A DNA stretch of 40,364 nt. Source: a virus. The notes beneath the pieces are model-generated. The model was not told where the DNA came from. It did no database searches and was given only the letters and a program-made list of their open reading frames with translations. Position 1 is the stretch's first letter, and each line of letters begins with the position of its first letter. Position numbers and translations under genes: made by a program. The stretch is taken from IMG/VR virus record IMGVR_UViG_3300025138_013592, positions 1 to 40,364 of that record; one strand, 5' to 3'. This document shows, piece by piece, positions 6,540 to 36,076 of the stretch.

Positions 6540-6573
6540 GTCCTTTCACCCCATATCCTCCTTTTTATCATTG
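6540..6573 (+). promoter_or_regulatory. Phage-type promoter 1: GTCCTTTC-N18-TATCATTG
   Basis: The -33-like octamer GTCCTTTC (6540-6547) and the -7 box TATCATTG (6566-6573) are 18 bases apart. It faces the prohead protease gene (6604) and is one of seven copies with identical spacing. Confidence 0.75.
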
Positions 6574-6603
6574 CTTTAGGTATTCTCATAAAACCAAAAG
6601 CAC

Positions 6604-7503
6604 ATGCCTCTATCTGCCAACTGGCAAATTCTTCTTCAGGATCAACTAATGCGAGGAATCTTTTTCATGCATCCTCAAATGGCACTAGGGATGGTCAAGC
6701 AGTTCAGCGAGTTTGCTATCAAAGAAGCTTCTCTTGAGGAATTAAGAGCAGATTTCCAGCTTTTGGCCATGGATCACAATGGCGATGAGTACAGTGTTTA
6801 TGATGAGGCGCCTCAAGGCAGCGTTGCCAGGTTTCTTATCCATGGACCAATGCTCAAATATGGCACGTGGTATACCTACGGCACTTTAGAAATTGCCGAC
6901 AGGATCAGAGAGGCGGGATTGCATAAAAACATCTCAGCTATAGTTATCGACTATGATACAGGTGGCGGAGTGGTTTCATCAATTCCCCCACTATCTCAGG
7001 CTATCGCTGATGTGAGAAAAATGGGAAAGCCTGTTTTGGCAGAGGTAGATCTTTGCTGCTCAGCTGGGTTGTGGTCCGCTGCTGATTGCGATTGGATCAT
7101 TGCCAAAAACAGCCTATCATGTGAGATAGGATCCATTGGGGTGATGGCTGACTTCTGGGACATCGCACCCTACTACGAATCGCTTGGTTTAAAACACCAT
7201 AGGATAGAATCAAATCTATCAGAGGATAAAAACAAGCCATTCAACCTTGCACTCGCTGGTGATTATGATCTGATAAAAACAGAAACACTGGATCCACTCG
7301 CCCTCAAATTCCAAAATCACATCAAATCCAGAAGAGAAGGCAAAATAGATGAGTCAGCGCCTGGTATTTTAACAGGCCGCACAGTCTTCGCTGAGGATGC
7401 CCTCAAGTACGGTCTTATAGATGAGATCGGCACCGGACACACCGCCATCGAACGAGCCATTCAGCTCACTGAAGTAAAAAACTTTATTAACACTTATAAA
7501 TAA
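6604..7503 (+). CDS. S49 (SppA-like) prohead protease
   Basis: Predicted head-maturation serine protease of the SppA/ClpP-like crotonase fold. It would cleave the scaffold and the capsid N-terminus inside the procapsid. The S49 core is clear: IVIDYDTGGGVV (about 113-124), the nucleophile Ser153 in CCSAGLWSAA, and EIGSIGVM (174-181). The later segment LTGRTVFAEDALKYGLIDEIG is typical of the family C-terminus. The length of 299 residues fits phage S49 proteases. It lies directly before the major capsid gene, as expected, and is the first gene after phage-type promoter 1. Confidence 0.85.
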   Translation: MPLSANWQILLQDQLMRGIFFMHPQMALGMVKQFSEFAIKEASLEELRADFQLLAMDHNGDEYSVYDEAPQGSVARFLIHGPMLKYGTWYTYGTLEIADRIREAGLHKNISAIVIDYDTGGGVVSSIPPLSQAIADVRKMGKPVLAEVDLCCSAGLWSAADCDWIIAKNSLSCEIGSIGVMADFWDIAPYYESLGLKHHRIESNLSEDKNKPFNLALAGDYDLIKTETLDPLALKFQNHIKSRREGKIDESAPGILTGRTVFAEDALKYGLIDEIGTGHTAIERAIQLTEVKNFINTYK

Positions 7504-7511
7504 TTCGAATT

Positions 7512-9086
7512 ATGAACCAATTGCTCACCGTTATAAAAATTTTCCTCGGCAAAGAAAAATTTGCAGAGAAGGACGGAAAAGCTCACCTCACAGATGATGA
7601 GCTCGCTAAGGTCAAATCAATGTTCGGTGAAGAAACAGCCAAAATTGTCACCGATGCTTTGGCCAATGGTAACAACTCAGATGCCGAAGGGAACTCTGAG
7701 ATGGCAAAGTTGATCGCAGCTCTTGCAGATCAATCACAAAAACAAACTGCAGATTTCCAGAAGAAAATCAATGCACTTGCTGATGACAAAGACAAACTCA
7801 AGGCACTCATTGATGAACTGGCTGGAAAAGAAGAAGAAGACCCCGAACCTGAAATGGGAAAAAACCTTGCCCGAGATACCGCGAAACCTACCATTATGAA
7901 GGTTTCAGGTAAAAACCCTGTATATGCAGCCGCTTACGAGTTTTTGGAGACTGGACGCTCTTCAGTGAGTGCAGCCAACGAAAACGGAGATACCATCGAT
8001 GTATCCGAACTGAAAGCCGAATTTGGAACCTATCTGAATACCCAGCGAAACCTGGACATTCTCAGAAGAATCCTTACAGGCTTCACTACCGCTAAGTACA
8101 TGACCACCAAGATGGCCCTCACTGAGTGGAGAGCTACCCAGGCGATCATCACCAGTGTGGTTCAGCAGTTCTCTCCCAAGTGGACTCCAAACGGAAAAGT
8201 GAAGTTCCGCCCTTTGGTCATCAAGAACAGAAGGCAGAAAATCAACTTTCCTATCGTCCCTGCAGATGTGCTGGATTCTTATTTGCTGTATCTCTATGAT
8301 GAAGGCCTTCATCCTGATCAGATGCCTATCACCACTTACATCATGAATGTAATGGTACTTCCTCAGGCGCTTCAGGATATCGAACTCCGAATGGTTGCCA
8401 AAGGGCGCTATGAAGAGCTTGACTGGTCAGGTGTTTCTGATGGTGATGCGGGTACTCCTCCAGAGGATGGTTGTGATGGATTCGAAACCATATTGGTTGA
8501 TAGCAAGCCTCTCAGTGGCACTGCCAATGACACCTTTATCAATTACTTCCGACCAACTGTGACGTTCAATTGGGTCACCGCCACGGACCAGCAAGTACTC
8601 GATTTCATCAATGCGTTCGTGGATTGGATCAATCCACAGTATCAGACGATGATGGCGCCGGTTTTCTGCTCGCTGGACGTGTATAAGCGCTACAAGCGCG
8701 CGTACAAGAAGATTTGGGGCACAGGCTCCGGTCAGGATGGCGATTTCGGAAAGGATAAGATTGATTATTCAAACAACGTCCTCATTCCATTGGATTCCAT
8801 GTACCGATCACCGATCATTTTCTCCACACCGAAGGAGAACTTCATCAAACTTCGTCACAAAAACGAAGTACCAAATGTGATCAATGATGTACAGCGATTC
8901 AATTACCTGGTCAAACTCTTCGGTGAGTTCTGGTTCGGGGTTGGTTTTGCGCTTGGTGAGGCAGTTTTTGCCTACGTGCCGGATGGTTACGATCCTAAAG
9001 CTTCCATCAAGGGAGCTTGGGGAGACTTTGATGACTATCAGGGATACATAGGAGAAAGCGACGGATCATCCGGCGGTGGACTCTAA
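7512..9086 (+). CDS. Major capsid protein with fused scaffold domain
   Basis: Predicted shell protein, probably HK97-like. Residues 1-115 are charged and helical with a coiled-coil look (ADQSQKQTADFQKKINALADDKDKLKALI), followed by an acidic linker. This resembles a delta-domain or scaffold fused to the N-terminus, which the upstream protease would remove. The remaining 400 residues are the shell part, with no motif I can cite beyond position, size and the protease-to-capsid order. The protein ends in ESDGSSGGGL, a Ser/Gly tail shared with other virion proteins here. A terminator-like hairpin follows ten bases after the stop. Confidence 0.8.
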   Translation: MNQLLTVIKIFLGKEKFAEKDGKAHLTDDELAKVKSMFGEETAKIVTDALANGNNSDAEGNSEMAKLIAALADQSQKQTADFQKKINALADDKDKLKALIDELAGKEEEDPEPEMGKNLARDTAKPTIMKVSGKNPVYAAAYEFLETGRSSVSAANENGDTIDVSELKAEFGTYLNTQRNLDILRRILTGFTTAKYMTTKMALTEWRATQAIITSVVQQFSPKWTPNGKVKFRPLVIKNRRQKINFPIVPADVLDSYLLYLYDEGLHPDQMPITTYIMNVMVLPQALQDIELRMVAKGRYEELDWSGVSDGDAGTPPEDGCDGFETILVDSKPLSGTANDTFINYFRPTVTFNWVTATDQQVLDFINAFVDWINPQYQTMMAPVFCSLDVYKRYKRAYKKIWGTGSGQDGDFGKDKIDYSNNVLIPLDSMYRSPIIFSTPKENFIKLRHKNEVPNVINDVQRFNYLVKLFGEFWFGVGFALGEAVFAYVPDGYDPKASIKGAWGDFDDYQGYIGESDGSSGGGL

Positions 9087-9095
9087 TCATTAAAA

Positions 9096-9127
9096 AACAC
9101 TCCCTTTTCACGGGGAGTGTTCTTTCA
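9096..9127 (+). terminator. Intrinsic terminator or attenuator after the capsid gene
   Basis: AACACTCCC (9096-9104) pairs with GGGAGTGTT (9113-9121), followed by CTTTCATTTT. It lies inside the head gene block, so it probably reduces rather than stops downstream transcription. Confidence 0.75.
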
Positions 9128-9153
9128 TTTTCTCACATCAATTCTTAATAAAA

Positions 9154-9726: not shown

Positions 9727-9747
9727 AAACAACTTTCGCTTCTTTCC

Positions 9748-9783
9748 ATTCACTCACCTCCCCGTAGGTGAGTGAATTTTTCC
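9748..9783 (+). terminator. Strong intrinsic terminator
   Basis: A 12-bp perfect stem, ATTCACTCACCT (9748-9759) with AGGTGAGTGAAT (9766-9777), is followed directly by TTTT. No phage-type promoter follows it, so the genes behind it depend on read-through or antitermination. Confidence 0.85.
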
Positions 9784-9806
9784 TTTCACCTTTTTCCATA
9801 TCAATC

Positions 9807-11586: not shown

Positions 11587-11611
11587 TCAGAAGCTTTGAT
11601 TGGTGGTTGAG

Positions 11612-11643
11612 TCGGGTGCTGAGAAATCACACCCGATTTTTTA
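11612..11643 (+). terminator. Intrinsic terminator after the lysis genes
   Basis: TCGGGTG (11612-11618) pairs with CACCCGA (11630-11636), with a run of seven T directly after. It ends the head and lysis block that starts at 6540. Confidence 0.85.
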
Positions 11644-11656
11644 ATTAAATACATCA

Positions 11657-12214: not shown

Positions 12215-12236
12215 CTTATAAGTGAACTAACCCTCA

Positions 12237-12270
12237 GTCCTTTCCATGATTTACCGCTTTCATAATTTCA
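12237..12270 (+). promoter_or_regulatory. Phage-type promoter 2: GTCCTTTC-N18-TAATTTCA
   Basis: GTCCTTTC at 12237-12244 and TAATTTCA at 12263-12270 are 18 bases apart. The box ends eight bases before the ATG at 12278, so the leader would be extremely short. It drives the terminase block. Confidence 0.75.
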
Positions 12271-12277
12271 CTATACC

Positions 12278-12472
12278 ATGTCAAAGATCAAGTCCCTCAC
12301 CATTGAAGGGGTAAGAATCCCCCTTTCCACACCCTGCCAGGCAACCCCAGGCAGGCAGATCACTCCCGCTTGCTCCATCATCCTTCAGAGAGATGACTGT
12401 GCCCGTGGTGAGATTCAGCAGCTTTATTGCACCACATGTGCCGAGGTAGTTTTTCAGAATGTAATCCGATGA
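12278..12472 (+). CDS. Hypothetical Cys-containing protein, 64 aa
   Basis: Unknown. It has six Cys residues, including a C-terminal CTTC (YCTTCAEVVFQN), so a small zinc-binding fold is possible. It is the first gene after phage-type promoter 2 and lies five bases before the small-terminase gene, which supports it as a real member of the packaging operon. Confidence 0.5.
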   Translation: MSKIKSLTIEGVRIPLSTPCQATPGRQITPACSIILQRDDCARGEIQQLYCTTCAEVVFQNVIR

Positions 12473-12476
12473 CGTC

Positions 12477-13421
12477 ATGAAGCATAACCTCGAAATCACA
12501 GAAGAAACCGGAAATATCATTGAGAACCTGGCGTCGCTTGCATACACCACAGCCGAGATGGCCATCTATTTCGATGTTGACCCAATCGTTTTTCAGTCAC
12601 TGGCAGACAATAAAGAGTCAAAAGTCTACTACCATATCAAGCGTGGCCAGACCATCGGCATAGCCAATGAGGAAATGGCCCTTCTGGATGAAGTTGTGTC
12701 AGGAAAAAAGAAAGCAGAGGCCTCCAAAAGACTTCATGAGATCCGTCGAAATAGGTCGTGGGATATTTCCAAAATTGACATCTTCGGAGGCTTTGAGGAC
12801 TCCCGGTCAGGCCGGGAATCATTCGAAAAACTCAAAGATTACATCGAGTCAGGATCTATCAATAAACTCTCTGCAGAGGAAGCCATATACATTGAGGCAC
12901 TCACCCTGTTCAATTCCATGACTCGTAAATATGGTCGTCGAAACACCATCAGGTTTTTCACCGGCCCTCCTTTCAATCTCAAGTATACGCGTGCCTCGGA
13001 AATGCACGATGAGGCAATCAACCTCTTCTATACCGATCGAAATATCGAAAAGAAGGCCCTTCGAAACCTCAAGGCAGACCAGCTGGAGGAAGCGGCCATT
13101 CTCGCGCGTGACATGGCCCGGTCATCTAAAGACCTGGATGTATACGGAAACCTGATCATGAAAGCCGCCAAACTCCAGGAGCTGGACCGGCCAGATATCG
13201 AGAAGCTCCCTGCCGATGTATACATGAAGCCAGTTAGGGTTTATTCCCTGGACACCACACACATTGGATTGCCTCTCATCAACCGTCAGGAGCTCGCAGA
13301 GCAAATTGAAGCGCTCGAAATCCCCGAACGTGACAAAATGAGATTAACACAGGATGCACTCATGGCACCTTTCAATATTGAAGACACACTCAATGGCCTG
13401 GAGGAAGAAAGTAAGCATTGA
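12477..13421 (+). CDS. Putative terminase small subunit, 314 aa
   Basis: Predicted DNA-recognition subunit of the packaging motor. Residues about 18-60 fit the helix-turn-helix seen in many small terminases (LASLAYTTAEMAIYFDVDPIVF), followed by a charged helix ending in EEMALLDEVVSGKKKAEA. The protein is longer than usual for a small terminase (150-200 residues), so the C-terminal 200 residues are an extra domain of unknown role. It overlaps the start of the large terminase, the strongest support for this call. Confidence 0.65.
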   Translation: MKHNLEITEETGNIIENLASLAYTTAEMAIYFDVDPIVFQSLADNKESKVYYHIKRGQTIGIANEEMALLDEVVSGKKKAEASKRLHEIRRNRSWDISKIDIFGGFEDSRSGRESFEKLKDYIESGSINKLSAEEAIYIEALTLFNSMTRKYGRRNTIRFFTGPPFNLKYTRASEMHDEAINLFYTDRNIEKKALRNLKADQLEEAAILARDMARSSKDLDVYGNLIMKAAKLQELDRPDIEKLPADVYMKPVRVYSLDTTHIGLPLINRQELAEQIEALEIPERDKMRLTQDALMAPFNIEDTLNGLEEESKH

Positions 13422-15447: not shown

Positions 15448-15481
15448 GTCCTTTCTCTTTTTTACACAAATCCTAATTTCA
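15448..15481 (+). promoter_or_regulatory. Phage-type promoter 3: GTCCTTTC-N18-TAATTTCA
   Basis: GTCCTTTC at 15448-15455 and TAATTTCA at 15474-15481 are 18 bases apart. The -7 box is identical to that of promoter 2. It lies just before the portal gene (ATG 15486), giving an almost leaderless message. Confidence 0.75.
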
Positions 15482-20842: not shown

Positions 20843-20876
20843 GTCCTTTCCTTTTTCCATTCACCCACTATCTTCA
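20843..20876 (+). promoter_or_regulatory. Phage-type promoter 4: GTCCTTTC-N18-TATCTTCA
   Basis: GTCCTTTC at 20843-20850 and TATCTTCA at 20869-20876 are 18 bases apart. It serves the tail-completion-type gene at 20894 and the lipoprotein gene behind it. Confidence 0.75.
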
Positions 20877-20893: not shown

Positions 20894-21331
20894 ATGCCTA
20901 TGCTCTCCATTCCCGAGCTCGAAGCTCTTTGCCAAACCCTCGTAGACAGCATTCCTCAGCTGTCAGGCCACGTCATCGTGGCTGAAGACAATCAGGCCAC
21001 CAGAAAACTCGCCGACAAGCAAAAGATCATCCTGGTGGGGGTTATCCCGTCCAGCGACACAGATGGCAGGCCTGGTATTCGTTCGGAGAAACAGACCGCC
21101 CTATTTTTTGTGGTCAAAAAGCACGACACCTCCGCTCCCGAAAGCCGGGAGCTCGCAGATTTTGCAGACACTCAGCAGGCGGCCTTAGCCATCCGTGAGT
21201 ACATCCTCTCAGAGCAGGAAGATAACGGATGCAGCATCTTCTTTAGGCTCGTCACCACTAGCATCACCATCACTCCAGAGTACAACATTTTCGGCGGCTT
21301 CCTCGGATGGTCCATCACATTCGTATTCTGA
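20894..21331 (+). CDS. Putative tail-completion (terminator-like) protein, 145 aa
   Basis: Size and layout fit a tail-terminator or head-tail joining protein. The N-terminal helix (SIPELEALCQTLVDSI) is followed by beta strands, and the protein ends with ITITPEYNIFGGFLGWSITFVF. A final strand of this type (NIFGGFLGWSITF) is common in small Bacteroidota phage proteins at this position. No catalytic motif is seen. The call rests on shape and place, directly after promoter 4. Confidence 0.5.
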   Translation: MPMLSIPELEALCQTLVDSIPQLSGHVIVAEDNQATRKLADKQKIILVGVIPSSDTDGRPGIRSEKQTALFFVVKKHDTSAPESRELADFADTQQAALAIREYILSEQEDNGCSIFFRLVTTSITITPEYNIFGGFLGWSITFVF

Positions 21332-21416
21332 TTGTTCAAAACTCGTTCATAACTCATCTCAATACTCATCGCTATTCACAATATTCATTCATACCTTTCA
21401 TCAAAAAACCACAGTT

Positions 21417-21602
21417 ATGAAAAACACCATTCGTAAATCCATCATCATCGCCATCATGCTCTGTGCATCAGGCTTCCTATTCAGTTGTCAGGATGATATC
21501 ACCGATCTTCAGGTATCTCCACCCCAAACCACCGCTCCTTCAGGAGGAGATACTGGCGGGGGTTCAGGTGGTGGTACATGCCCGGATTGTGGCGGTGGAT
21601 AA
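21417..21602 (+). CDS. Small surface-type lipoprotein, 61 aa
   Basis: Predicted outer-membrane lipoprotein. ATG 21417 gives a basic N-terminus, a hydrophobic core and a lipobox LFSC with acceptor Cys24. The residues after the Cys (QDD) fit the acidic signal that sends Bacteroidota lipoproteins to the cell surface. The mature part is only 38 residues, Pro/Thr/Gly-rich, ending in GTCPDCGGG with a CxxC pair. It is followed by a strong terminator. In phages, small lipoproteins often block receptors against superinfection, or act as outer-membrane spanins. The distance from the lysis genes makes the first more likely, but this is inference. Confidence 0.7.
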   Translation: MKNTIRKSIIIAIMLCASGFLFSCQDDITDLQVSPPQTTAPSGGDTGGGSGGGTCPDCGGG

Positions 21603-21638
21603 TCCACTCAAAGGGGTACTCGTAAAAATAAATGCATC

Positions 21639-21665
21639 AAAACCGCGTCTAATCGCGGTTTTTTT
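21639..21665 (+). terminator. Intrinsic terminator after the lipoprotein gene
   Basis: AAACCGCG (21640-21647) pairs with CGCGGTTT (21654-21661) and runs into a T tract. It separates the promoter 4 unit from the moron block. Confidence 0.85.
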
Positions 21666-21703
21666 GCTATTATTCCACTACACAAGAGTCCCTATACTAT
21701 CAA

Positions 21704-23047
21704 ATGATTATAAGATTTTCCGCCATTCTTATTGTCGTTTGCTTTCAGGCGTTTTATGCACTATCAAATGATAGTGATTTTGAAAAAACCATTGCCAGCG
21801 CCAGGCAGCAAATCACAGTAAACACCCCTTCAGCCATCAGTCTCGCAGAGCAGGCCTCGCGCATTGCTATTTCATCAGGATCCAGGCTCCAGCTTGGACG
21901 GGCATACTGGATGCTCGGTTATCTCTATGAAATATCCGATAACCTGTCGCTGGCAGTGACACATTATCATCAGGCAGCGCTCATCTATCAGCGCCTGGAT
22001 CGACCCTCAGATGTTGCCGCACTCATGGAGCAGTCTGGTCGTGCCAAATTAAACTTTGGCCTCTATCATCTCGCGCTCAAGGATTATCAGCGTGCTCTCG
22101 CAGCACTTTCATGCCATCCAGATGATCATCCCTGCCAGGCTACTTCCCACAGTTATAAGATTCTGTCCTCCCTACATTACGACATGGGCATCACTCACGC
22201 GCATCTCAGGCAGTACGATCAAGCCATTATGTTTTTCATTCGTGTACTCTCTCTCACCCGCCTACATGGAGACCTCTCAGATACTACGCTCATCAGTCAT
22301 ACACACAATGAAATAGGACGCGTATATCAGCATCTTGCCACTGATCAGCATTTGCCGCATTATTACGATAGCGCCACCCTTCATTTTCACAGGGCTCTAT
22401 CCTACTCATCGGCGCCATTTCACACGTTCTATGTCAGAAATAACCTCGGTCACATGGCCCTTACTCGCCGCCAGTTGGATACGGCTTCTCATTGGCTCAG
22501 CCGGACCATGGATATTGGCGTTACGCTTCCGGCACATCAGGCCATCATCCCCACCCTCAACAACCTCGCTGAGCTGGCATTCCTCTCCGGAGACATTCAC
22601 ACTGCAGACTCATTGTTGCATCAGTCCATTCAGATAAATGTTCGGCAGTATTCCCCTGATCAAATCATCCAGGATCTACACTTACCGCTTGTCTTGCACA
22701 ATACCCCCGAGCTCATCCGTAGTTATAGCCTTTTAGACAGTATTGCCATTGGTCACCCAGACATGAGCGCATTGCTGGCACGGGTTACTCAGATCACCCA
22801 GGCAGAGCAGGCTGCCAGAGCTCAGGAAATGGAAACCACCTATTTAGAGGAGATTAATCATATGCAAAAGGAGATCAAAGCCAAAGAAACGGATGACATC
22901 ATTACCTATTGGCTCATCTTAGGCACCATTTCCATCATCAGCGGATCCGTTATTTATTTTCTCTCTGTTAAATTTGTCAAAGCTTCCAGGTATAAGCAGT
23001 CCATCGAGTCCAAGCTGTCTCGTATCCGTTCTAAGTATTCATCCTAA
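21704..23047 (+). CDS. TPR-repeat membrane protein, 447 aa
   Basis: Residues 1-20 are a signal peptide (MIIRFSAILIVVCFQAFYAL). TPR-type helical repeats fill about residues 45-330 (LGRAYWMLGYLYEISDNLSLA; FGLYHLALKDYQRAL; RNNLGHMALTRRQLDTA; LNNLAELAFLSGDIHTADSLL). A coiled coil (about 360-395) leads to one membrane span (about 397-423) and a short basic cytoplasmic tail. This is the layout of the sensor half of Bacteroidota TPR histidine kinases and TPR-LuxR regulators, but the output domain is absent. It may be a host-derived cargo gene that interferes with signalling or acts at the envelope. Confidence 0.7.
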   Translation: MIIRFSAILIVVCFQAFYALSNDSDFEKTIASARQQITVNTPSAISLAEQASRIAISSGSRLQLGRAYWMLGYLYEISDNLSLAVTHYHQAALIYQRLDRPSDVAALMEQSGRAKLNFGLYHLALKDYQRALAALSCHPDDHPCQATSHSYKILSSLHYDMGITHAHLRQYDQAIMFFIRVLSLTRLHGDLSDTTLISHTHNEIGRVYQHLATDQHLPHYYDSATLHFHRALSYSSAPFHTFYVRNNLGHMALTRRQLDTASHWLSRTMDIGVTLPAHQAIIPTLNNLAELAFLSGDIHTADSLLHQSIQINVRQYSPDQIIQDLHLPLVLHNTPELIRSYSLLDSIAIGHPDMSALLARVTQITQAEQAARAQEMETTYLEEINHMQKEIKAKETDDIITYWLILGTISIISGSVIYFLSVKFVKASRYKQSIESKLSRIRSKYSS

Positions 23048-23054
23048 AATCAAC

Positions 23055-23681
23055 ATGGAAACATCCTTAATAGTCATTATCGTTATTGGAGTACTGCTAA
23101 TAGTGGTAGTAGCTAAGGTAAAAATGAACAAGGATCTCAAGATTAAGCTTGGAAAGACTTCTCTTCAGGCGGCATTGGATAGCCTTGAACACTTTGACGT
23201 TAGCATTCATCATATCAATCCATTATCAGGGTTTATTGCAGCGAGTCATGATTACCGAAAGTTGGCCGTCTGTTATCTGGAGAGCATCCCGCTAGTTTAT
23301 CCTTACACAAGTTTGATCAAGTGTGAAATCATTCAGGATGGAGAAACATCCTACTCCAAATCGACAGCAAGCACTATTGGTCGTGCTGCTGTTGGAGCTT
23401 TATTTGCCGGTGGCGCTGGATTGTTGTTAGGGGGAATGAGTGCCGCACAAAAAAAGAAAATCAAAATTAAAAAACTCCACCTCAAGCTGTTTTTTCGAGA
23501 TCTTGATAACCCTTCTTTTACCCTCACTTTTTTCGAATCATACGATCAGAGCAAGGGCACGTCACCTATTGACAATGTAGACGGGAAGGATTTAGTCAAA
23601 GCTTTAGAGGAAATCAATAAATGGAAAGATGTTCTTGAAGTGATAATTGATTCCAACTTGAGTGCCGTAGGTGATGAATGA
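23055..23681 (+). CDS. Membrane-anchored protein with Gly-rich segment, 208 aa
   Basis: ATG 23055 starts right after the TPR gene, and earlier in-frame ATGs lie inside that gene. Residues 4-21 form an N-terminal membrane anchor (SLIVIIVIGVLLIVVVAK). The centre has a Gly/Ala-rich hydrophobic stretch (GRAAVGALFAGGAGLLLGGM, about 118-137), flanked by beta strands such as LIKCEIIQDGE and LHLKLFFRDLDNPSFTLTFFE. This matches a widespread uncharacterised family that pairs such a glycine-zipper-like stretch with small beta domains. Function unknown. It belongs to the same cargo block as the TPR gene. Confidence 0.65.
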   Translation: METSLIVIIVIGVLLIVVVAKVKMNKDLKIKLGKTSLQAALDSLEHFDVSIHHINPLSGFIAASHDYRKLAVCYLESIPLVYPYTSLIKCEIIQDGETSYSKSTASTIGRAAVGALFAGGAGLLLGGMSAAQKKKIKIKKLHLKLFFRDLDNPSFTLTFFESYDQSKGTSPIDNVDGKDLVKALEEINKWKDVLEVIIDSNLSAVGDE

Positions 23682-23787
23682 TTATGCTCCAGAGTGGTAC
23701 GAGGTGATATTGTCAGTCCTCATCTTTGTTGGTGGGCTTTGGCTGGTGATACGCTTTACCAATTGGCGCAAGGGTGGGTATAAGTAG
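23674..23787 (+). CDS. 37-residue single-pass membrane protein
   Basis: ATG 23674 overlaps the end of the previous gene and the frame runs to TAG 23787. The product is MNDYAPEWYEVILSVLIFVG and then GLWLVIRFTNWRKGGYK: a short outside part, one hydrophobic span (about 10-28) and a positively charged end. Clear topology and coupling to the previous gene support a real micro-gene. It ends 12 bases before the convergent regulator gene. Confidence 0.55.
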   Translation: MNDYAPEWYEVILSVLIFVGGLWLVIRFTNWRKGGYK

Positions 23788-23799
23788 GGGTTTACCGAA

Positions 23800-24198
23800 T
23801 TATTCCCCTCTCAGTAAGTTCATCAGCTCGGCCTTCATCTCAGCATTCTCATCTTCCAGGTGGTTCACCAGGGAAATTGCCCGCTCCACCGCATCCAGTG
23901 AGTCGTTATCCTTTAGACTCTCCCGGATCCGCTTCATCAGGTCATAAAACTCCGCCCGACTCCACTTCTTTTCATCACTGGTCATGGGGCCAACTCCATC
24001 CATTAGCCATCTTCTGTTAACCTCAGGGAAAGCCATTAGTATTTTCTCCACCTTATCCACTCCCATTACAGATCCTTTTCTGAGTGTGCCAAATATGCTA
24101 TGGCTTACACCTATTTGCCGAGCTATTTCCCGATCACTAAGACCTGTTTCTGCCAGGAACGTCAAAATTCTTTGCTGTATGCCTAATATATTTGACAC
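23800..24198 (-). CDS. XRE-family helix-turn-helix regulator (candidate repressor), 132 aa
   Basis: Predicted DNA-binding repressor. Residues 7-60 form an XRE-like domain, with the helix-turn-helix at about 21-41 (SDREIARQIGVSHSIFGTLR). The segment EVNRRWLMDGVGPM (59-72) is typical of this group in Bacteroidota mobile elements. The C-terminal part is a coiled-coil-like dimer region (SLVNHLEDENAEMKAELMNLL) with no autoprotease domain, so RecA-driven self-cleavage is not expected. The start is GTG 24198. It is transcribed leftward behind the small RHH gene and away from the KilA-N operon. An 18-bp palindrome lies 35 bases upstream. Confidence 0.75.
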   Translation of the reverse strand: MSNILGIQQRILTFLAETGLSDREIARQIGVSHSIFGTLRKGSVMGVDKVEKILMAFPEVNRRWLMDGVGPMTSDEKKWSRAEFYDLMKRIRESLKDNDSLDAVERAISLVNHLEDENAEMKAELMNLLRGE

Positions 24199-24232
24199 TT
24201 TGTTATTTTTACTAGGTTGTTTTCGTTATGAT

Positions 24233-24255
24233 TGTAAAATATATTTTACATGTAA
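24233..24255. promoter_or_regulatory. Palindromic operator candidates upstream of the XRE gene
   Basis: TGTAAAATATATTTTACA (24233-24250) is a perfect 18-bp palindrome. It overlaps a second one, TTACATGTAA (24246-24255). Both lie between the two minus-strand regulator genes, where a dimeric repressor could control the XRE gene. Confidence 0.6.
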
Positions 24256-24266
24256 GGTAAATGAAT

Positions 24267-24431
24267 TTATACTTTCCTCTCTGCTTTAAGCTTTTCAACT
24301 CCAGCGCGAACCACTTCATAATACAAGTCTTTAAGATTTTCCTTCCGGTCGTTTTCAAGTTCTCTTTCTATCTGAAGTCTTTTTACTTCTGCGTGGAGTT
24401 CCGAAGGAACATCCAATTGAATCTTTGCCAT
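24267..24431 (-). CDS. Small ribbon-helix-helix-like regulator, 54 aa
   Basis: Translating the minus strand from ATG 24431 gives a start MAKIQLDVPSELHAEVKRLQ and an end VRAGVEKLKAERKV. The pattern of a short strand (KIQLDVP), a helix (SELHAEVKRLQIERE) and a second helix ending the protein fits Arc/CopG-type ribbon-helix-helix proteins, which bind DNA as dimers through the strand. It is the first leftward gene of the switch. Its own promoter candidate and operator-like inverted repeats lie between it and the KilA-N gene. It could also be an antitoxin, but no toxin partner is evident. Confidence 0.6.
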   Translation of the reverse strand: MAKIQLDVPSELHAEVKRLQIERELENDRKENLKDLYYEVVRAGVEKLKAERKV

Positions 24432-24451
24432 GCCACCAATATTTTATATGT

Positions 24452-24463
24452 CTTTGATACAAA
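24452..24463. promoter_or_regulatory. Operator half of the divergent switch (left)
   Basis: CTTTGATACAAA at 24452-24463 is the exact reverse complement of TTTGTATCAAAG at 24514-24525. It overlaps the leftward -7 box TACATTTG (24467 down to 24460 on the minus strand), so a bound protein would block leftward transcription. Confidence 0.65.
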
Positions 24464-24467
24464 TGTA
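24460..24467 (-). promoter_or_regulatory. Leftward -7 box for the regulator genes
   Basis: On the minus strand this reads TACATTTG, a full match to TAnnTTTG, 28 bases before the RHH start. I see no good -33 TTG at the right distance. Confidence 0.5.
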
Positions 24468-24486
24468 AACTTTTAATATAATTATT

Positions 24487-24517
24487 TTGATATGTATATA
24501 TCTATTATATATGTTTG
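24487..24517 (+). promoter_or_regulatory. Rightward promoter for the KilA-N operon (TTG-N20-TATGTTTG)
   Basis: TTG at 24487-24489 and the perfect -7 box TATGTTTG at 24510-24517 are 20 bases apart. The box overlaps the operator half at 24514-24525. It is the likely early promoter of the element. Confidence 0.65.
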
Positions 24518-24525
24518 TATCAAAG
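24514..24525. promoter_or_regulatory. Operator half of the divergent switch (right)
   Basis: TTTGTATCAAAG, the inverted partner of 24452-24463, with 50 bases between the two. It overlaps the rightward -7 box. The core TTTGTATCAAA is one base away from TTTGTAACAAA, the reverse complement of the array unit at 5047-5057. Confidence 0.65.
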
Positions 24526-24551
24526 TAATACTTTAGATACCTACAAACATC

Positions 24552-25094
24552 ATGAATCAGGAAACGATACTCAAATTCACCTATCAGGAAACAGAAATAG
24601 ATTTCCTACAGTCTTCCAGTTCCATTATGGTCAATGCCACAGAGATGGCTAAACTATTTGGAAAACGCGTAGACGTGTTCTTGAAATCTGATCACGCTCA
24701 AGCCTTCATTGAAGCATTAAAGCTCACACCATATGGTGGGAGCTTTGATAGTTTGGCGGATGCCGATATTATAAAATCAAGAAGCGGATCACGGACTTAT
24801 TTCCATCGCCTTCTGGCACTCAAGTTTGCCGCATGGTTAAGTCCGGAGTTTGAAGTTTGGGTATACTCCACCATAGACCATATTCTGTTCAGCTACTACC
24901 ATGAGCTGGAGGCCAATCTAAACGAAACAGCTCGGGTGGACACTGAAATTGAGAAGTATAATAATGAGCTGATGGAGATGGACACCTATCAGCAGCTGAA
25001 CCGGCTCAAGAAACAAAAGAGCCAGTTAGTTGCTCAGCGCTCAGTCATTTCCAGAACTCAGCTCAACTTCCTCAAAGAACTTTATAAAAATTAA
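24552..25094 (+). CDS. KilA-N domain protein, 180 aa
   Basis: Predicted DNA-binding early protein. Residues about 20-115 follow the KilA-N pattern: IMVNATEMAKLFGKRVDVFL, then SRSGSRTYFHRLLALKFAAWLSPEFEVWV. The C-terminal third is a coiled coil (NLNETARVDTEIEKYNNEL; LNRLKKQKSQL). KilA-N proteins are frequent in phages, where they act as early regulators or antirepressors. As the first gene after the early promoter and divergent to the repressor genes, it occupies the position of a Cro or antirepressor. Confidence 0.85.
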   Translation: MNQETILKFTYQETEIDFLQSSSSIMVNATEMAKLFGKRVDVFLKSDHAQAFIEALKLTPYGGSFDSLADADIIKSRSGSRTYFHRLLALKFAAWLSPEFEVWVYSTIDHILFSYYHELEANLNETARVDTEIEKYNNELMEMDTYQQLNRLKKQKSQLVAQRSVISRTQLNFLKELYKN

Positions 25095-25097
25095 ACA

Positions 25098-25325
25098 ATG
25101 CGATACACCTATATCATCAAACACTTAGATGCTCCACAGCTGCTTTCAGGCGCAATTCACCGTCCTGAGGAAATTATTGCCCGTAAGAAGAGCGCTGCAA
25201 AAGCACGGAAATTTCTCTTACGCTTTGGTATACAGACAAAGGATCGCCTACAGAAGGAAGTAGCCTTTCTTATCCCCAATACCAGAGAAAAACTTATCCA
25301 GATAAATCGAATAGGGCATTCATAA
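25098..25325 (+). CDS. Hypothetical protein, 75 aa
   Basis: Three bases after the KilA-N gene. A small, strongly basic protein (RKKSAAKARKFLLRFGIQTKDRLQ), which might bind nucleic acid. No family is recognised. Support is operon packing and direction. Confidence 0.55.
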   Translation: MRYTYIIKHLDAPQLLSGAIHRPEEIIARKKSAAKARKFLLRFGIQTKDRLQKEVAFLIPNTREKLIQINRIGHS

Positions 25326-25344
25326 AATCAGGCTGACTAACACC

Positions 25345-25692
25345 ATGCACGAATTCAACCGAAAAGAAATCACCCAAGATCAGATGCTTCAGCAGTTGGG
25401 GTCACTCATTACTAAAAATCATCAGATACCCGAGCATACCCGAAAGAACCTCCTTGAAAACAAAAGCATCAAGGATTTCTGTGAAGAGTCCCGGCACTTT
25501 GCTTTGCTAAAAAAGATGGGTGGAAAGGATCTCCACATTCATTATGATGTCAGTTCATGGTTCTTACCACCCAATGGAGTCACAATCAAAATCCAGACCA
25601 TTGGTATCTATGAAAATTACCTGGAGTATGAAATCGCACGTCAAAAGGCCCTGAACAGCACTCCTCATTCTTACAGTCCAAACCAAAACTAA
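25345..25692 (+). CDS. Hypothetical protein, 115 aa
   Basis: Unknown. The N-terminal half is helical (ITQDQMLQQLGSLITKNHQI...NLLENKSIKDFCEES) and the second half beta-like (LHIHYDVSSWFLPPNGVTIKIQTIGIYENY). It lies in the early operon, 19 bases after its neighbour. No membrane segment or known motif. Confidence 0.6.
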   Translation: MHEFNRKEITQDQMLQQLGSLITKNHQIPEHTRKNLLENKSIKDFCEESRHFALLKKMGGKDLHIHYDVSSWFLPPNGVTIKIQTIGIYENYLEYEIARQKALNSTPHSYSPNQN

Positions 25693-25704
25693 CCATTCCA
25701 CAAA

Positions 25705-26151
25705 ATGACAAACGAAGACGTTTTAGCAGAAATAGAGCAATTAGGATGTCTGTCAATAGATAGGCTTTTCTGGATAGCTCTCTCAACAGATAACAGGGAT
25801 CTTCATAGTTTCCTTGATGAGATTGATTTTGAACAGTATGTCCAAATCATCCCATGGGTAGAGGACACCAATAATCACCGGGTAAAATTTGCAACGGGCT
25901 ATGGAGGGGATTGGAAAGCAGTCATGGATGAGTTCGGCTTATTTGGATTCATTGCTGAAGTGCACATCCCTCACATTTCTAATGTTTTTTTCGGCGATGA
26001 TGGAGAACCACAGTCTTGGACAGTAAAACTAGGCGTGTGCTCCTATCACTATGTCTATGCTGAGGACACCGATGACCTTCTGGAGGCAATTAAGGACATA
26101 TATAATCGACGATTAAGCGAGATGGTCAACGAGGCCCGAAAAACTTCCTGA
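25705..26151 (+). CDS. Hypothetical acidic protein, 148 aa
   Basis: Unknown, clearly acidic protein with many Asp, Glu and Trp residues (WIALSTDNRDLHSFLDEIDF; GYGGDWKAVMDEFGLFGF). Small acidic early proteins in phages are often inhibitors of host proteins or of defence systems, but nothing here proves it. It lies 12 bases after the previous gene and three bases before the next. Confidence 0.6.
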   Translation: MTNEDVLAEIEQLGCLSIDRLFWIALSTDNRDLHSFLDEIDFEQYVQIIPWVEDTNNHRVKFATGYGGDWKAVMDEFGLFGFIAEVHIPHISNVFFGDDGEPQSWTVKLGVCSYHYVYAEDTDDLLEAIKDIYNRRLSEMVNEARKTS

Positions 26152-26154
26152 CAA

Positions 26155-26490
26155 ATGGCCTGCTCTTGTGTAAATATCATTCCGCAAAGTGAAGAATGCT
26201 ACGCCCAGCAGATCACCGTAGATATTCCTCCACACATGCATCAATACAGAGACAGTAGACTCAAGCAAGGTCTCAGTAGCAAGGTGTCCATTGACCCTTG
26301 CATTTACGATGAAATCTGTCAGCTCTGGGATATGGGTATCATCACATACGGTTCATGCTGTGGTCACAATTTGGAACAATCCTTTGTAAATGTATCACCA
26401 GACCATATTGATCAGATGTTAACCATGGGGTATGTCCATAATCATCCAGACCCCTTACGAAAAGACACATTCAAACTAAAAACCGCCTGA
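26155..26490 (+). CDS. Conserved Cys/His protein with CCGHN motif, 111 aa
   Basis: The central block VSIDPCIYDEICQLWDMGIITYG followed by SCCGHN (44-72) matches a family I know from many phages and bacteria but whose function is not known. Cys49, Cys55, Cys68, Cys69 and His71 could bind a metal. The N-terminus has a further CSC. Position in the early operon suggests a role in takeover of the cell. Confidence 0.65.
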   Translation: MACSCVNIIPQSEECYAQQITVDIPPHMHQYRDSRLKQGLSSKVSIDPCIYDEICQLWDMGIITYGSCCGHNLEQSFVNVSPDHIDQMLTMGYVHNHPDPLRKDTFKLKTA

Positions 26491-26493
26491 CCA

Positions 26494-27012
26494 ATGAATA
26501 AAGCTCAGAAAAAACGATTTACGGAATTCTGCAAAGATCAAATTGCTCTCTTAGAAGAGCAGAGGACTGAAATAGAGCAAGAAATCATATACTACCAGAC
26601 CATTGATTATAAGCAGTATGTGAAATTGATCACCTGTTCAATCTATGATGACACATCCAAATCACAGACCTTTTTCATTGTATCAGACCCTGACAAAAAG
26701 AAGAATGCTGATACCTTTCCTCAGCCCGGACGACTACTTCCGGCACATCCCAATTTTCCACACTTTAGATGCTTTGTTCACAGCACTGAAAAAGGGCAGT
26801 GTGTCTCCCACTTAGACAGTGGATTCAAGATTGGGTCTCTCAGTGAAATTCAAGGTACATATGATGATGCCTTAGAATCATTCCTGAAGTTTGATCCATC
26901 AAAAGATGACATAAACACGGCCATCAATCGTGCGCAAAAAACCATAGTAAGTTCCGGATTAGAATATCCAGTTAACCAACTCACAAAAACAAACAACAAT
27001 GGACCTCACTGA
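26494..27012 (+). CDS. Hypothetical protein, 172 aa
   Basis: Unknown. The N-terminus is a charged helix (RFTEFCKDQIALLEEQRTEIEQEIIYY). A mixed region follows, with VKLITCSIYDDTSKSQTFFIVSDPD, and the end is polar and Asn-rich. It overlaps the following gene by 14 bases. No motif recognised. Confidence 0.55.
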   Translation: MNKAQKKRFTEFCKDQIALLEEQRTEIEQEIIYYQTIDYKQYVKLITCSIYDDTSKSQTFFIVSDPDKKKNADTFPQPGRLLPAHPNFPHFRCFVHSTEKGQCVSHLDSGFKIGSLSEIQGTYDDALESFLKFDPSKDDINTAINRAQKTIVSSGLEYPVNQLTKTNNNGPH

Positions 27013-27238
27013 CCTCACCATGGAACTCTCCCATTTCGGACATGTCCAGATTTGCCATGCCAATACCGTTTTCACTCTCCTAATGACCGGCCACGGCCTG
27101 GACAATGCAAAGACCTATTGCTCTATCCAAACCAAAGTCTTAAATCAAGTGGGTGATCATTTCCCATACATAGAAGCCATGAGAAATGACACCAACTTTT
27201 TTTGCGTAGTTCTATCACCAAACCCAAAAACATCATGA
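26999..27238 (+). CDS. Hypothetical protein, 79 aa
   Basis: Unknown small protein (MDLTDLTMELSHFGHVQICH...). It overlaps both neighbours (14 and 4 bases), in the same manner as the rest of the operon. Mixed alpha/beta, no membrane segment. Confidence 0.5.
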   Translation: MDLTDLTMELSHFGHVQICHANTVFTLLMTGHGLDNAKTYCSIQTKVLNQVGDHFPYIEAMRNDTNFFCVVLSPNPKTS

Positions 27239-27441
27239 CCTGTGTCCACTGTGGCAAAGATCCCGGCACCCATCCCTCTAACCCTTTACTATGGTTTGGC
27301 TTCAAGGATGCCGATACCGGAGAGCTCTCCTGTAGAGCGTGTATACCGGTGCATTACAAGAAAAAGAACCTTGGGCCCTTTGCTCATATGTATAGCGAAT
27401 TACCCGTCATTATAAAGCCAACAGAAACTGTAAAATCATGA
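27235..27441 (+). CDS. Zinc-ribbon protein, 68 aa
   Basis: ATG 27235 overlaps the previous stop as ATGA and is preferred over an in-frame ATG at 27202. Two CxxC pairs (CVHC at residues 3-6 and CRAC at about 37-40) form a likely four-Cys zinc site with a 30-residue loop between. The C-terminal part is basic then Pro-rich. Possibly a nucleic-acid or protein-binding factor. Confidence 0.6.
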   Translation: MTCVHCGKDPGTHPSNPLLWFGFKDADTGELSCRACIPVHYKKKNLGPFAHMYSELPVIIKPTETVKS

Positions 27442-27842
27442 AACCATTCACTGAACGCCAATACCAAACTGCATACAATGCACTTCTTAAAATCATAGAA
27501 GTGAAAGACCGAAGAGAAATGAAGCTCACCTGGATTCAAAGTGAAGGAAGTGATCCTTCTGGAGCGAGTAACTGCTTAATGACTTTAAGCGATTTTGAAG
27601 TAGAAGTGAAGCGGCTCATGCATGGCCTGGTTGAACTACAGCGGACTGGTGAGTTTTATTTAGCAGATAATTCTCAAGAATCAGACGAATCGCTTGACAT
27701 GGACAGCGCAGAATTGGTGCTCCTCAGGAAATGTTTCGGAACATTTGATCGGGAGGTGATTGAGCAAATAGCGAAAGAAGGTGTAGGATCTCCTGCAGGT
27801 AAAACCCTAATCAATGATATAGCTAAATCAATACAGTCATGA
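27438..27842 (+). CDS. Hypothetical protein, 134 aa
   Basis: Unknown, helical and acidic. It overlaps the upstream gene by four bases, and its TGA overlaps the ATG of the remnant gene at 27839. No named domain. Confidence 0.55.
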   Translation: MKPFTERQYQTAYNALLKIIEVKDRREMKLTWIQSEGSDPSGASNCLMTLSDFEVEVKRLMHGLVELQRTGEFYLADNSQESDESLDMDSAELVLLRKCFGTFDREVIEQIAKEGVGSPAGKTLINDIAKSIQS

Positions 27843-27961
27843 AAGAACGTCCCATCCTATTTAGTACACCCATGGTTCGGTATGGGCCATCACTTTTAAA
27901 GTTATTTCCACAAACGGTAAACCTCGAAACAAATGAAAATGGCAAAAGCAAGTCAGGATGA
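27839..27961 (+). pseudogene. Remnant of an ASCH-type phage protein gene
   Basis: The frame begins MKERPILFSTPMVR, which I recognise as the conserved start of a common phage protein of the ASCH/RNA-binding-like group. In intact members a segment with Lys-Thr-Gln-Thr-Arg-Arg follows within 15 residues. Here the sequence diverges after Arg14 (YGPSLLKLFPQTVN...) and stops after 40 residues. This suggests an internal deletion that joined the 5' end to later sequence. The ATGA overlap with the previous gene is kept. Confidence 0.6.
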
Positions 27962-28373
27962 CTTGGATAAAATGAGACTCTTCTATGAGGTAATGGAAGC
28001 CTACTATCAAGCTGCCTGTGAAAACCTTCATGATTTCACTGATCTTTTTAAGGATTCTGAAATGGAACAAATCAGTTCTGCATTCAACGACAAAGGAGAA
28101 TTTGATATTGATGATTTCTTGCGCCTTTCATACGATCACCTGCTCTCCGGATTCTTCCGTGTCCATTTCGGATATCAAGTGTTACTTAGTAATGCTTGTG
28201 ATCCCTCAGAAGATTCACTCCAGTTTAAGGACTGGATCAAGCAATCCATAGAAGTACTATCAGAAATCGATGAATATATCTCACCAAACCCCACAAACTA
28301 CATCGGATTTGACTCCACTCTACATCAGAAAGTAAAGTCTGTATTATCACTCCATGAAAAATCGCTATTATGA
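27933..28373 (+). CDS. Hypothetical acidic helical protein, 146 aa
   Basis: Unknown. The product is almost entirely helical and acidic (LDKMRLFYEVMEAYYQAACENLHDF; FKDWIKQSIEVLSEIDEYI). The start lies inside the remnant gene's frame, consistent with a deletion that brought it close. It overlaps the next gene by four bases. Confidence 0.6.
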   Translation: MKMAKASQDDLDKMRLFYEVMEAYYQAACENLHDFTDLFKDSEMEQISSAFNDKGEFDIDDFLRLSYDHLLSGFFRVHFGYQVLLSNACDPSEDSLQFKDWIKQSIEVLSEIDEYISPNPTNYIGFDSTLHQKVKSVLSLHEKSLL

Positions 28374-28813
28374 AAAACTTAAACACACACCTCGCCATCT
28401 TCGAACTCCTCGAAGATTCAGATCCCGTCATCAAGGTAGCTACCAGGCTCCAGCACCTCATAGATTACTATGAGGAGGGCCGTGATTACTATCAGAAAAA
28501 CATCAGCGTAGAAGACTCCTTTGATCATGATGAGACCATCGCTTTTTTAGATGTCCTCCAGACCCTTACCGGCAAGATCATCAATCCCACAGGTCCTGTC
28601 ACAATGATACTCACCCGTGGCACCCAGTCCTTAAATGTGCTCCCCATTTCCAGTGTCTTTGAGCACTGGACACTCCCACAGGTTCTGAGCATCCTCCAGT
28701 CAGTCAAGTCCGCACTCGTGCTATACCTCCATGCAGACAACTGTATTCAGTTCAAGACCGCTTACGCCACACTAAATAACTGGTATTCATTTTTCACCCA
28801 GTTGGAGCCATGA
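28370..28813 (+). CDS. Hypothetical helical protein, 147 aa
   Basis: Unknown helical protein (HLAIFELLEDSDPVIKVATRL; LPQVLSILQSVKSALVLYL). It overlaps neighbours at both ends as ATGA-type junctions. No motif. Confidence 0.55.
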   Translation: MKNLNTHLAIFELLEDSDPVIKVATRLQHLIDYYEEGRDYYQKNISVEDSFDHDETIAFLDVLQTLTGKIINPTGPVTMILTRGTQSLNVLPISSVFEHWTLPQVLSILQSVKSALVLYLHADNCIQFKTAYATLNNWYSFFTQLEP

Positions 28814-29073
28814 TGACAGAGGTTACTACTGGCCATGATCATTCTGGCTTGCGATATCGCATTGTGGTAGATGAGATTGGCAAGTACCACATCCAGACTC
28901 CACGTTCCAAAGGTAAGTGGAGAGTCCTTCGCGGTGGTTTCACCAGGGAGAAAGCCTTCTATCTCATAAAAGAAAAAGGGATTTCCGGCATTCGCCAGAT
29001 AAACCTCAATGAGAAGTTCGGTTTCATACTTTTCCTCCTTCTTATGACCATCATCATGATACTCCTCAGATAA
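28810..29073 (+). CDS. Hypothetical tail-anchored membrane protein, 87 aa
   Basis: A polar N-terminal domain of about 65 residues (SGLRYRIVVDEIGKYHIQTP; GFTREKAFYLIKEKGI). One hydrophobic segment at the very end follows (FGFILFLLLMTIIMILL, about 70-86), so it is probably anchored in the inner membrane by its C-terminus. Last gene of the early operon, 35 bases before a strong terminator. Confidence 0.6.
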   Translation: MMTEVTTGHDHSGLRYRIVVDEIGKYHIQTPRSKGKWRVLRGGFTREKAFYLIKEKGISGIRQINLNEKFGFILFLLLMTIIMILLR

Positions 29074-29108
29074 AGAATAGTGGTTAGGTGTTTTTTTCAG
29101 GTTGGGTT

Positions 29109-29140
29109 GAACCCGCACCCTTTGGGTGCGGGTTCTTAGT
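29109..29140 (+). terminator. Strong intrinsic terminator of the early operon
   Basis: A 12-bp perfect stem, GAACCCGCACCC (29109-29120) and GGGTGCGGGTTC (29124-29135), with a three-base loop. TTAGTT follows. Confidence 0.85.
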
Positions 29141-29354
29141 TGCTAGGCACCCCATTTCGGCCATATTCTAGCACTTATCACCCGTTTTACACCACTTCTT
29201 CCCGAATTTTTACGATATATCCAATTGACTGTCAGATATATGCAGTCTTTTGCCGTCCCTTCGCTTTTTTCACACTACCGCGGAAGCCCGTTCCGCCCTC
29301 TTTTGTATGTGCAATTGCAAAAGAGGTTGGTTTGGTGATATATGATTAGCTCTT
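29141..29354. other. Non-coding gap between the early operon and tail genes
   Basis: No convincing gene. It contains an inverted repeat, CCTCTTTTG (29297-29305) and CAAAAGAGG (29318-29326), with a 12-base loop and a T/G-rich 3' side. This could be a second, weak terminator. The next promoter begins at 29355. Confidence 0.5.
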
Positions 29355-29388
29355 GTCCTTTCACACCCTGATCTCCTGGATAGTTTAG
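29355..29388 (+). promoter_or_regulatory. Phage-type promoter 5: GTCCTTTC-N18-TAGTTTAG
   Basis: GTCCTTTC at 29355-29362 and TAGTTTAG at 29381-29388 are 18 bases apart, in front of the tail block that starts at 29407. The early-operon terminator upstream isolates it. Confidence 0.75.
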
Positions 29389-29406
29389 CTTATAATATTA
29401 CAAGAG

Positions 29407-29781
29407 ATGAGTATTATTCAGAAGGAGTTTATCAGGAGGGTACTTGAGGATGAGGCTAATAGGATGGAAAAAAACCAGGGGTTGCAAATGAAAAGACTCC
29501 TGCACTTCCACACTGGCAACTTGTTTAATGGGAGGCAATTTACTGTGAAGCAGGGAGCAGACCTGGACGGTGTACTCACCATCAAATTCAAGATTTATCA
29601 ACGCTTTCTGGACATGAAAAGGAAAGTCCGATCTAAGAATGGTAACATCCGAAATCGCCAATATTCAATCCACAACAAATATGTGTTTGGGCACTTCTAT
29701 TCGATTGGAGACCGGCTTATGTACGAGCTGACAGAAGATCTGATTGAAGGAATAAAACGAGACCTCAAAATTTCAAACTGA
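29407..29781 (+). CDS. Hypothetical protein upstream of the tape measure, 124 aa
   Basis: Unknown. It is basic and mostly helical (IQKEFIRRVLEDEANRMEKNQG; YSIGDRLMYELTEDLIEGIKRDL) with a beta-like centre (DGVLTIKFKIYQRFL). Genes at this place often encode tail-completion or tail-chaperone products. It shares its last base with the first base of the tape-measure gene, so translation is coupled. Confidence 0.6.
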   Translation: MSIIQKEFIRRVLEDEANRMEKNQGLQMKRLLHFHTGNLFNGRQFTVKQGADLDGVLTIKFKIYQRFLDMKRKVRSKNGNIRNRQYSIHNKYVFGHFYSIGDRLMYELTEDLIEGIKRDLKISN

Positions 29782-33722: not shown

Positions 33723-33726
33723 ACAT

Positions 33727-35571: not shown

Positions 35572-35579
35572 ACTGACCA

Positions 35580-35613
35580 GTCCTTTCCTATCAGGTAACG
35601 CTATTTATTTTCG
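35580..35613 (+). promoter_or_regulatory. Phage-type promoter 6: GTCCTTTC-N18-TATTTTCG
   Basis: GTCCTTTC at 35580-35587 and TATTTTCG at 35606-35613 are 18 bases apart. It precedes the small coiled-coil membrane protein gene at 35633. Confidence 0.75.
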
Positions 35614-35632
35614 CTTTAAGTGATATTATACT

Positions 35633-36016
35633 ATGGAAAACGCAGATTGGGGTAAGCTTTTTGACCACACTAAGTCATTAGAAAAAAAAATGGATCAGGT
35701 GCTCCAGGCTCTCAATGGTGATGAGTTCAATCAATATCCAGGACTCATCGCCGAGCAAAAGAATGATAATGAATTCAGAGGGTATGTAAAAGATAAGCTG
35801 GAGACCATCACACGCAATCAGGAGCATCAAAAAAAAATCAATCTGGAAGTAAATGAACGACTGGAATCTGTGGAAGTGTTTGTTAAGTTCTTTACCACAT
35901 TGGGAAAAATAAAGAGAACCACATGGATGATCATAGGCGCTATGATTGCCGGGGCTGGTTTGATGCTGACGAACATTGAAAAAATGGGTCATTGGGTTTA
36001 CAAGATTACCCATTGA
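35633..36016 (+). CDS. XhlA-like coiled-coil membrane protein, 127 aa
   Basis: A charged coiled coil (residues about 8-95) followed by one membrane segment (about 98-116, TTWMIIGAMIAGAGLMLTNI) and a short end. This is the layout of XhlA-type lysis-associated proteins and of some tail-linked membrane proteins. It has its own phage-type promoter on each side, so its level can be set apart from tail genes. A second holin or a lysis regulator is possible; function not proven. Confidence 0.55.
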   Translation: MENADWGKLFDHTKSLEKKMDQVLQALNGDEFNQYPGLIAEQKNDNEFRGYVKDKLETITRNQEHQKKINLEVNERLESVEVFVKFFTTLGKIKRTTWMIIGAMIAGAGLMLTNIEKMGHWVYKITH

Positions 36017-36042
36017 GTTAGATCTCTTACCCCTCACCTCTT

Positions 36043-36076
36043 GTCCTTTCCCAATAAGCCCTATCTCCTAGTTTAG
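36043..36076 (+). promoter_or_regulatory. Phage-type promoter 7: GTCCTTTC-N18-TAGTTTAG
   Basis: GTCCTTTC at 36043-36050 and TAGTTTAG at 36069-36076 are 18 bases apart. It drives the tail adhesin gene at 36103, and its -7 box is identical to that of promoter 5. Confidence 0.75.

Follow-up and report, generated by a model that had tools for sequence, protein, structure and literature searches.

We propose that the late genes of a Bacteroidota prophage are switched on from seven copies of a compound promoter, in which a phage element stands upstream of a box of the host type. The window, that is, the whole stretch of DNA analysed here, corresponds to an IMG/VR prophage record and is 40,364 bases long. 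It carries the octamer GTCCTTTC seven times, always on the + strand and never on the - strand, and we are highly confident, in the absence of transcript data, that these seven sites are phage promoters. The explanation that we favour, and consider likely, is that they are late promoters combining the host -7 box with a phage reader at the octamer, most likely a protein that we call P1; their activity and timing, the binding of P1 and its contact with sigma are inferred.

Seven sites between genes and their conservation

A first-pass annotation of the window had placed octamers at 6540, 12237, 15448, 20843, 29355, 35580 and 36043, all facing rightward in gaps between genes, and each is found as placed. 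The gaps make up only 6.5% of the window and contain 7/7 sites; in fact, among the 8-mers present in five or more copies, GTCCTTTC alone sits wholly in gaps. Since the octamer is short, about 1.5 copies are expected by chance (mean 1.53 in shuffled windows), but none of 100 shuffles reaches seven, and conservation across phages refutes a collection of chance repeats, an explanation that can practically be set aside.

A TA, the beginning of a Bacteroidota -7-like box, follows each octamer at 18 nt, and no other such pair in the window is as strong as this combination of octamer and spacing. The exactness of the 18-base spacer, claimed at first for every case, thus holds within the window but not in relatives, where the spacer is 18 or 19 nt. 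The proposed box pattern TAnnTT likewise fits six of the seven sites exactly (GTCCTTTC-N18-TAnnTT); the site at 6540 has TATCATTG, with one mismatch. The box ends are imperfect: six deviate from TTTG (TTCA, TTAG, TTCG), and the remaining one, TATCATTG, deviates at its fifth base.

The first putative late promoter (6540-6573, + strand as are all the others) consists of the octamer at 6540-6547 and the box TATCATTG at 6566-6573, and precedes the head protease gene at 6604, a position at which many relatives also have a site. The second (12237-12270; box TAATTTCA at 12263-12270) precedes the gene at 12278, whose ATG is 7 nt from the box, the small terminase-like gene at 12477 and the large terminase gene at 13354; its position is matched in five relatives (L009, L022, L082, L095 and L098). 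The third (15448-15481) has the same box, TAATTTCA, at 15474-15481, with the ATG of the portal gene (15486) 4 nt further on. The fourth (20843-20876; box TATCTTCA at 20869-20876) precedes a conserved gene of the virion block at 20894. The fifth (29355-29388; box TAGTTTAG at 29381-29388) stands before the gene at 29407 and the tape measure gene at 29781, and is again matched in position in five relatives (L014, L017, L022, L088 and L098). The sixth (35580-35613; box TATTTTCG at 35606-35613) precedes the gene at 35633; the label "XhlA-like" first given to this gene (35633-36016) is without any family match in support. The seventh (36043-36076) has TAGTTTAG at 36069-36076 and precedes the gene at 36103, which weakly matches tail fibre J families.

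To follow these sites, relatives were collected with a terminase alignment built from five phages, which gave 80 viral contigs and 29 genome loci; the portal protein as a lone query had returned only an identical contig and zero genome relatives, a problem that the terminase alignment solved. The first-pass annotation had suggested searching the octamer pattern on both strands in related phages and in shuffled sequence, and this check came out in its favour: the near set comprises 27 loci (514 kb), and all 51 copies of GTCCTTTC in it are forward, with 0 in reverse. In the relatives, sites are found ahead of the same genes, namely those for the protease and the small terminase and the genes that precede the portal gene and the tape measure gene. 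Where the octamer seemed to be absent from a relative, a variant with the core GTCCTT lies at the same place. Among near relatives, 61 of 136 GTCCTT cases have a box that begins 18 or 19 nt after the octamer, as against at most 5 at any other distance; in distant phages, 19 of 113 cases have a spacing of 19. No spacing peak to a -7-like box is seen with the reverse complement of the GTCCTT core.

The element extends well beyond this group of phages. We find tGTCCTT-N20/21-TAnnTTTG before homologous late genes, almost only on the coding strand, in phages and prophages of Cyclobacteriaceae, Sphingobacterium, Bacteroides, Prevotellaceae, Cellulophaga and Polaribacter, including Bacteroides phage BT-TP2, Cellulophaga phage Ingeline and prophages of Prevotellaceae and Bacteroides. 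In the cultured Polaribacter phage Leef_1, which belongs to another family, all six copies of TGTCCTTT are forward and in gaps. The scan of the collection with GTCCTTTT-N19-TANNTTTG allows counts only among the matches listed, and no rate is given. Flavobacterium-type relatives lack GTCCTT and have tGTCACA at an equal distance before the protease gene; at that place, Flavobacterium phage 6H has GTCTTA and a Prevotellaceae group has GTCTTT. When all hexamers lying 21 nt before a box were ranked by their excess on the same strand over the opposite strand, without any prior choice of hexamer, GTCCTT (57/1) and GTCACA (29/0) came out as the top two.

The hosts themselves do not use the element. 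A sharpened pattern finds 32 matches in 297 Bacteroidota genomes, which is not above a reversed-pattern control, and GTCCTTTC-N18/19-TANNTT has no match in the genome (G489) that carries a 99% match to a gene flanking the prophage. A host promoter class, read by an alternative or ECF sigma factor at sites scattered through the host, was rejected because host genomes are not enriched. Thus, the description as a phage-specific promoter is right in that the element belongs to phages rather than to hosts, but it is not specific to this phage, being shared across Bacteroidota phages.

A host-type box and a replaced upstream box

In Flavobacterium johnsoniae, promoters have a -7 box TAHHTTTG, from which transcription starts 4-5 nt further on, with G absent at -10/-9, and the -33 box is weak (PMC6847099). 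The sites described here resemble these host sigma-ABfr promoters (TTTG-N19-21-TAnnTTTG) in the -7 box, the start distance and the avoidance of G at -10/-9 (PMC6847099), but differ from them in that tGTCCTTTC replaces the -33 TTTG. The boxes of the relatives read TA(not G)(not G)TT(T/C)G, G being avoided at both H positions. An A occupies the fifth position after the box in 65 of 94 related sites (69%) compared to 30% for other boxes, and an ATG lies exactly 4 nt after the box in 27 of the 94 (29%) compared to 2% in controls. Together with the start distance known from F. johnsoniae, this A and the ATG found there make transcription starts predictable. The sites thus agree with the host definition at the -7 box and the predicted start, the window boxes being imperfect at the end, and depart from it at the -33 box, where the octamer stands instead; as inferred from the spacing, the octamer spans about -38 to -31, the place of the host -33 box.

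Keeping the host -7 box while replacing the -33 box was the logic first proposed for these sites, and it is upheld by spacing, location in gaps, strand, conservation, the start-site signature and absence from hosts. The accompanying claim that TTG-N20-TAnnTTTG is the ordinary early promoter finds no such backing, as the window has a single match (24487) where 0.49 are expected. Gene content and association, without transcription data, are the basis for inferring that the sites are middle or late promoters in need of an activator.

The distance of 4 nt between box and ATG at 15448 means that the portal mRNA (15486) is probably leaderless. Sites before the portal gene and its small upstream gene in the relatives (L009-L093) also have the ATG 4 nt past the -7 box, and leaderless mRNAs are predicted there, unlike at most F. 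johnsoniae genes.

Could the conserved sequence act in RNA rather than in DNA, as a terminator, an antitermination site or a leader structure? At some small-terminase sites the spacer does form a perfect hairpin followed by TTTTTG. Nevertheless, folding surpasses that of shuffled sequence (z below -2) at only 14 of 94 sites, and the seven window sites fold at 0 to -2.2 kcal/mol; moreover, the -7 box, the fixed spacing and the start signature are features of DNA promoters. Folding thus rejects an RNA element, which we regard as very improbable, in favour of a promoter. As a separate observation, at the small terminase site of seven relatives (L016, L015, L020, L022, L082, L096 and L098) the spacer forms a perfect or near-perfect hairpin, and the T-run of this hairpin is also the -7 box (for example GCCACTATGTTAGTGGCATTTTTG), so that terminator and promoter seem superimposed.

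The P1 protein as candidate reader

If the octamer is read by a phage protein, the best candidate is P1 (189 aa; 5467-6036, + strand). No other non-virion gene is shared by all 16 near relatives complete enough to count, and P1 lies directly before the late block. The neighbouring gene at 6093-6515 was considered as the regulator and rejected, being conserved in only 12 of the 16. P1 alone finds zero matches by tblastn in the phage collection, and profiles were needed; iterated profiles bring together a family of 54 members, mostly encoded just upstream of the late block. An alignment of the full set of 26 P1 proteins proved too diverse for scanning the collection, and two narrower alignments took its place. 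The family corresponds to phrog_21888, of unknown function, and is unnamed.

P1 has no Pfam match and no match in the PDB by profile or fold. Its AlphaFold2 model is confident (pLDDT 90) and has a beta/alpha N-terminal part, a helix at 120-130, a turn and a helix at 139-174. Judging from the order of the helices in the model, and with no solved relative to compare, the C-terminal bundle may be helix-turn-helix-like; conservation is among the highest at residues about 139-150. Fold searches of the PDB and of viral proteins gave one useful match, a 157-aa protein of phage Leef_1, whose gene is most likely the one just upstream of the protease gene.

The association between P1 and the element holds in both directions. 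Seven contigs fetched solely for the DNA pattern also hold P1. Conversely, in 25 unseen loci picked by P1 alone, GTCCTT ranks first of 4096 hexamers by the strand excess used above, with 18 occurrences on the same strand in 16 loci and 0 on the opposite strand; four of the 25 show no element class. Strong P1 matches in host genomes have sites downstream, a test that is only partly independent because some of these genomes had already been seen through the terminase search; one very weak match (27.7 bits, in G871) is without sites and is probably false. P1 subfamilies pair with GTCCTT, GTCACA, GTCTTT or GTCTTA at one spacing, and the element class changes 4 times on the P1 tree, where the least possible is 3. 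There are exceptions: Ingeline has GTCCTT, yet its P1 sits on a very long branch among GTCACA types, and six P1 loci lack any element class under the strict pattern.

These pairings bear on whether an activator is needed at all. The host polymerase could read the element by itself, GTCCTTT being simply a -33 box preferred by phages; it does occupy the -33 place at a spacing near that of the host, whose own -33 box is weak (PMC6847099). This we consider improbable, since hosts leave the element unused and since four elements at one spacing are sorted by P1 subfamily, which suggests a phage reader that changes. A phage reader other than P1, or a host factor, is harder to dismiss, and we leave it as an unlikely but real possibility: the association of P1 with the promoters partly follows descent, so P1 could be merely co-inherited and present for a different reason, and without binding data other early proteins, some of them unconserved, remain possible readers. 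Against it, P1 stands alone among non-virion genes in 16/16 relatives, its subfamilies match the element sequence, searches by P1 only recover the element, and host genomes lack it. On association, position and the helix-turn-helix-like model, we think it probable that P1 activates the promoters.

We envision the following sequence of events. P1 would be made at the end of early expression from its gene directly before the late block, so that the virion genes would be switched on together once it accumulates. At each site, the host primary sigma (sigma-ABfr) would read the TAHHTTTG-like -7 box, while a phage protein, most likely P1, would contact GTCCTTTC at about -38 to -31 and replace the -33 contact. 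Transcription would start at the fifth base after the -7 box, usually an A, which at 15448 would be the A of the portal ATG. P1 may replace sigma region 4 (as MotA does with AsiA), straddle region 4 or act otherwise, and this remains open. A bolder idea, tentative and on present evidence doubtful, is that P1 represents a new fold family in which a single protein displaces region 4 of the unusual sigma of Bacteroidota or takes its place, and in which changes in the three bases after an invariant GTC (CTT, ACA, TTT, TTA) give separate late regulons with one architecture, phylum-wide.

Relation to known switches and other features of the window

That a phage element can take over from the upstream promoter box is already known from T4 and Mu. 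In T4 middle promoters, a MotA box at a fixed distance replaces the upstream box and the host -10-type box is kept, MotA acting with AsiA (PMC2988021). The sites described here are similar in having a phage box at a fixed distance (the peak at 18/19) upstream of a host-type box and many copies before operons, but they differ in sequence and spacing, in serving virion genes and in belonging to a temperate phage; P1 matches nothing solved in sequence or fold. Phage Mu is temperate, with the gene for its activator C (and Mor) ahead of the late genes; it has four late promoters with a host -10 box, a poor -35 box and a longer, partly dyadic site. The resemblance lies in the temperate lifestyle, the activator gene ahead of the late genes and several late promoters with a host box; however, neither P1 nor 25 relatives contain a Mor/C Pfam domain. 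RinA and ArpU of Firmicutes phages are small regulators at the early-late boundary, conserved by position, that act on one main packaging and morphogenesis operon. P1 is also small and positionally conserved at that boundary, and has no Pfam match to the RinA/ArpU sequence family. Phage sigma factors of the T4 gp55 or SPO1 type, which have a sigma fold and a -10 sequence of their own, do not fit, as the -7 box here stays host-type and P1 has no sigma match by sequence or fold. Kinship with the MotA or Mu C systems is not shown, and any likeness would appear to be one of working.

Within the open-access library searched, which omits most subscription journals, we found no description of a Bacteroidota phage promoter with this octamer, of the P1 family, of their phylum-wide spread or of any control of Bacteroidota phage late genes. 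The recurrence of the signal and the adjoining P1 in viruses across Bacteroidota suggests a common late-gene switch. With the promoter pattern, late operons can be recognised in phages of widely different Bacteroidota hosts, which would aid the annotation of their genomes, and the candidate activator P1 has a confident model and lacks any known relative. The three further element classes allow swap tests, and the system could yield inducible promoters that are silent in the host. It would also make clear by what means phages redirect the divergent sigma factor of the Bacteroidota.

Several other features deserve mention. Eight Flavobacterium-type phages (L030, L033, L040, L061, L064, L065, L103 and L104) each have one promoter-like site TTACTTG-N19-21-TAnnTTTG, perhaps an early or accessory promoter. 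In the window, the 630-bp gap upstream of P1 holds a TGTAAC/GTTACA array (5039-5295) that comprises all six TGTAAC of the window, 4 of its 8 GTTACA and three copies of TGTAACAAA spaced exactly 40 nt apart; it is perhaps a replication origin or an operator array controlling P1. An accessory block, mostly unconserved in relatives, lies between late promoters 4 and 5 (21332-29349) and includes a KilA-N gene (24552-25094).

One contig (G001) is identical to the window over the 21 kb compared, has the same seven sites and extends into host DNA with a GAPDH gene, which lies past the integrase, an alpha-amylase and a histidine kinase, the last of these 99% identical to one in G489. The record edges (1 and 40364) coincide exactly with gene boundaries, namely the ATG of a methyltransferase and the integrase start; it was therefore annotation that trimmed the prophage, and the record may lack the true left end. 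Finally, a near-exact direct repeat of about 150 bp (about 2702-2855 and 3860-4010) flanks the genes at 2861-3839, as would result from the insertion or duplication of a gene cassette.
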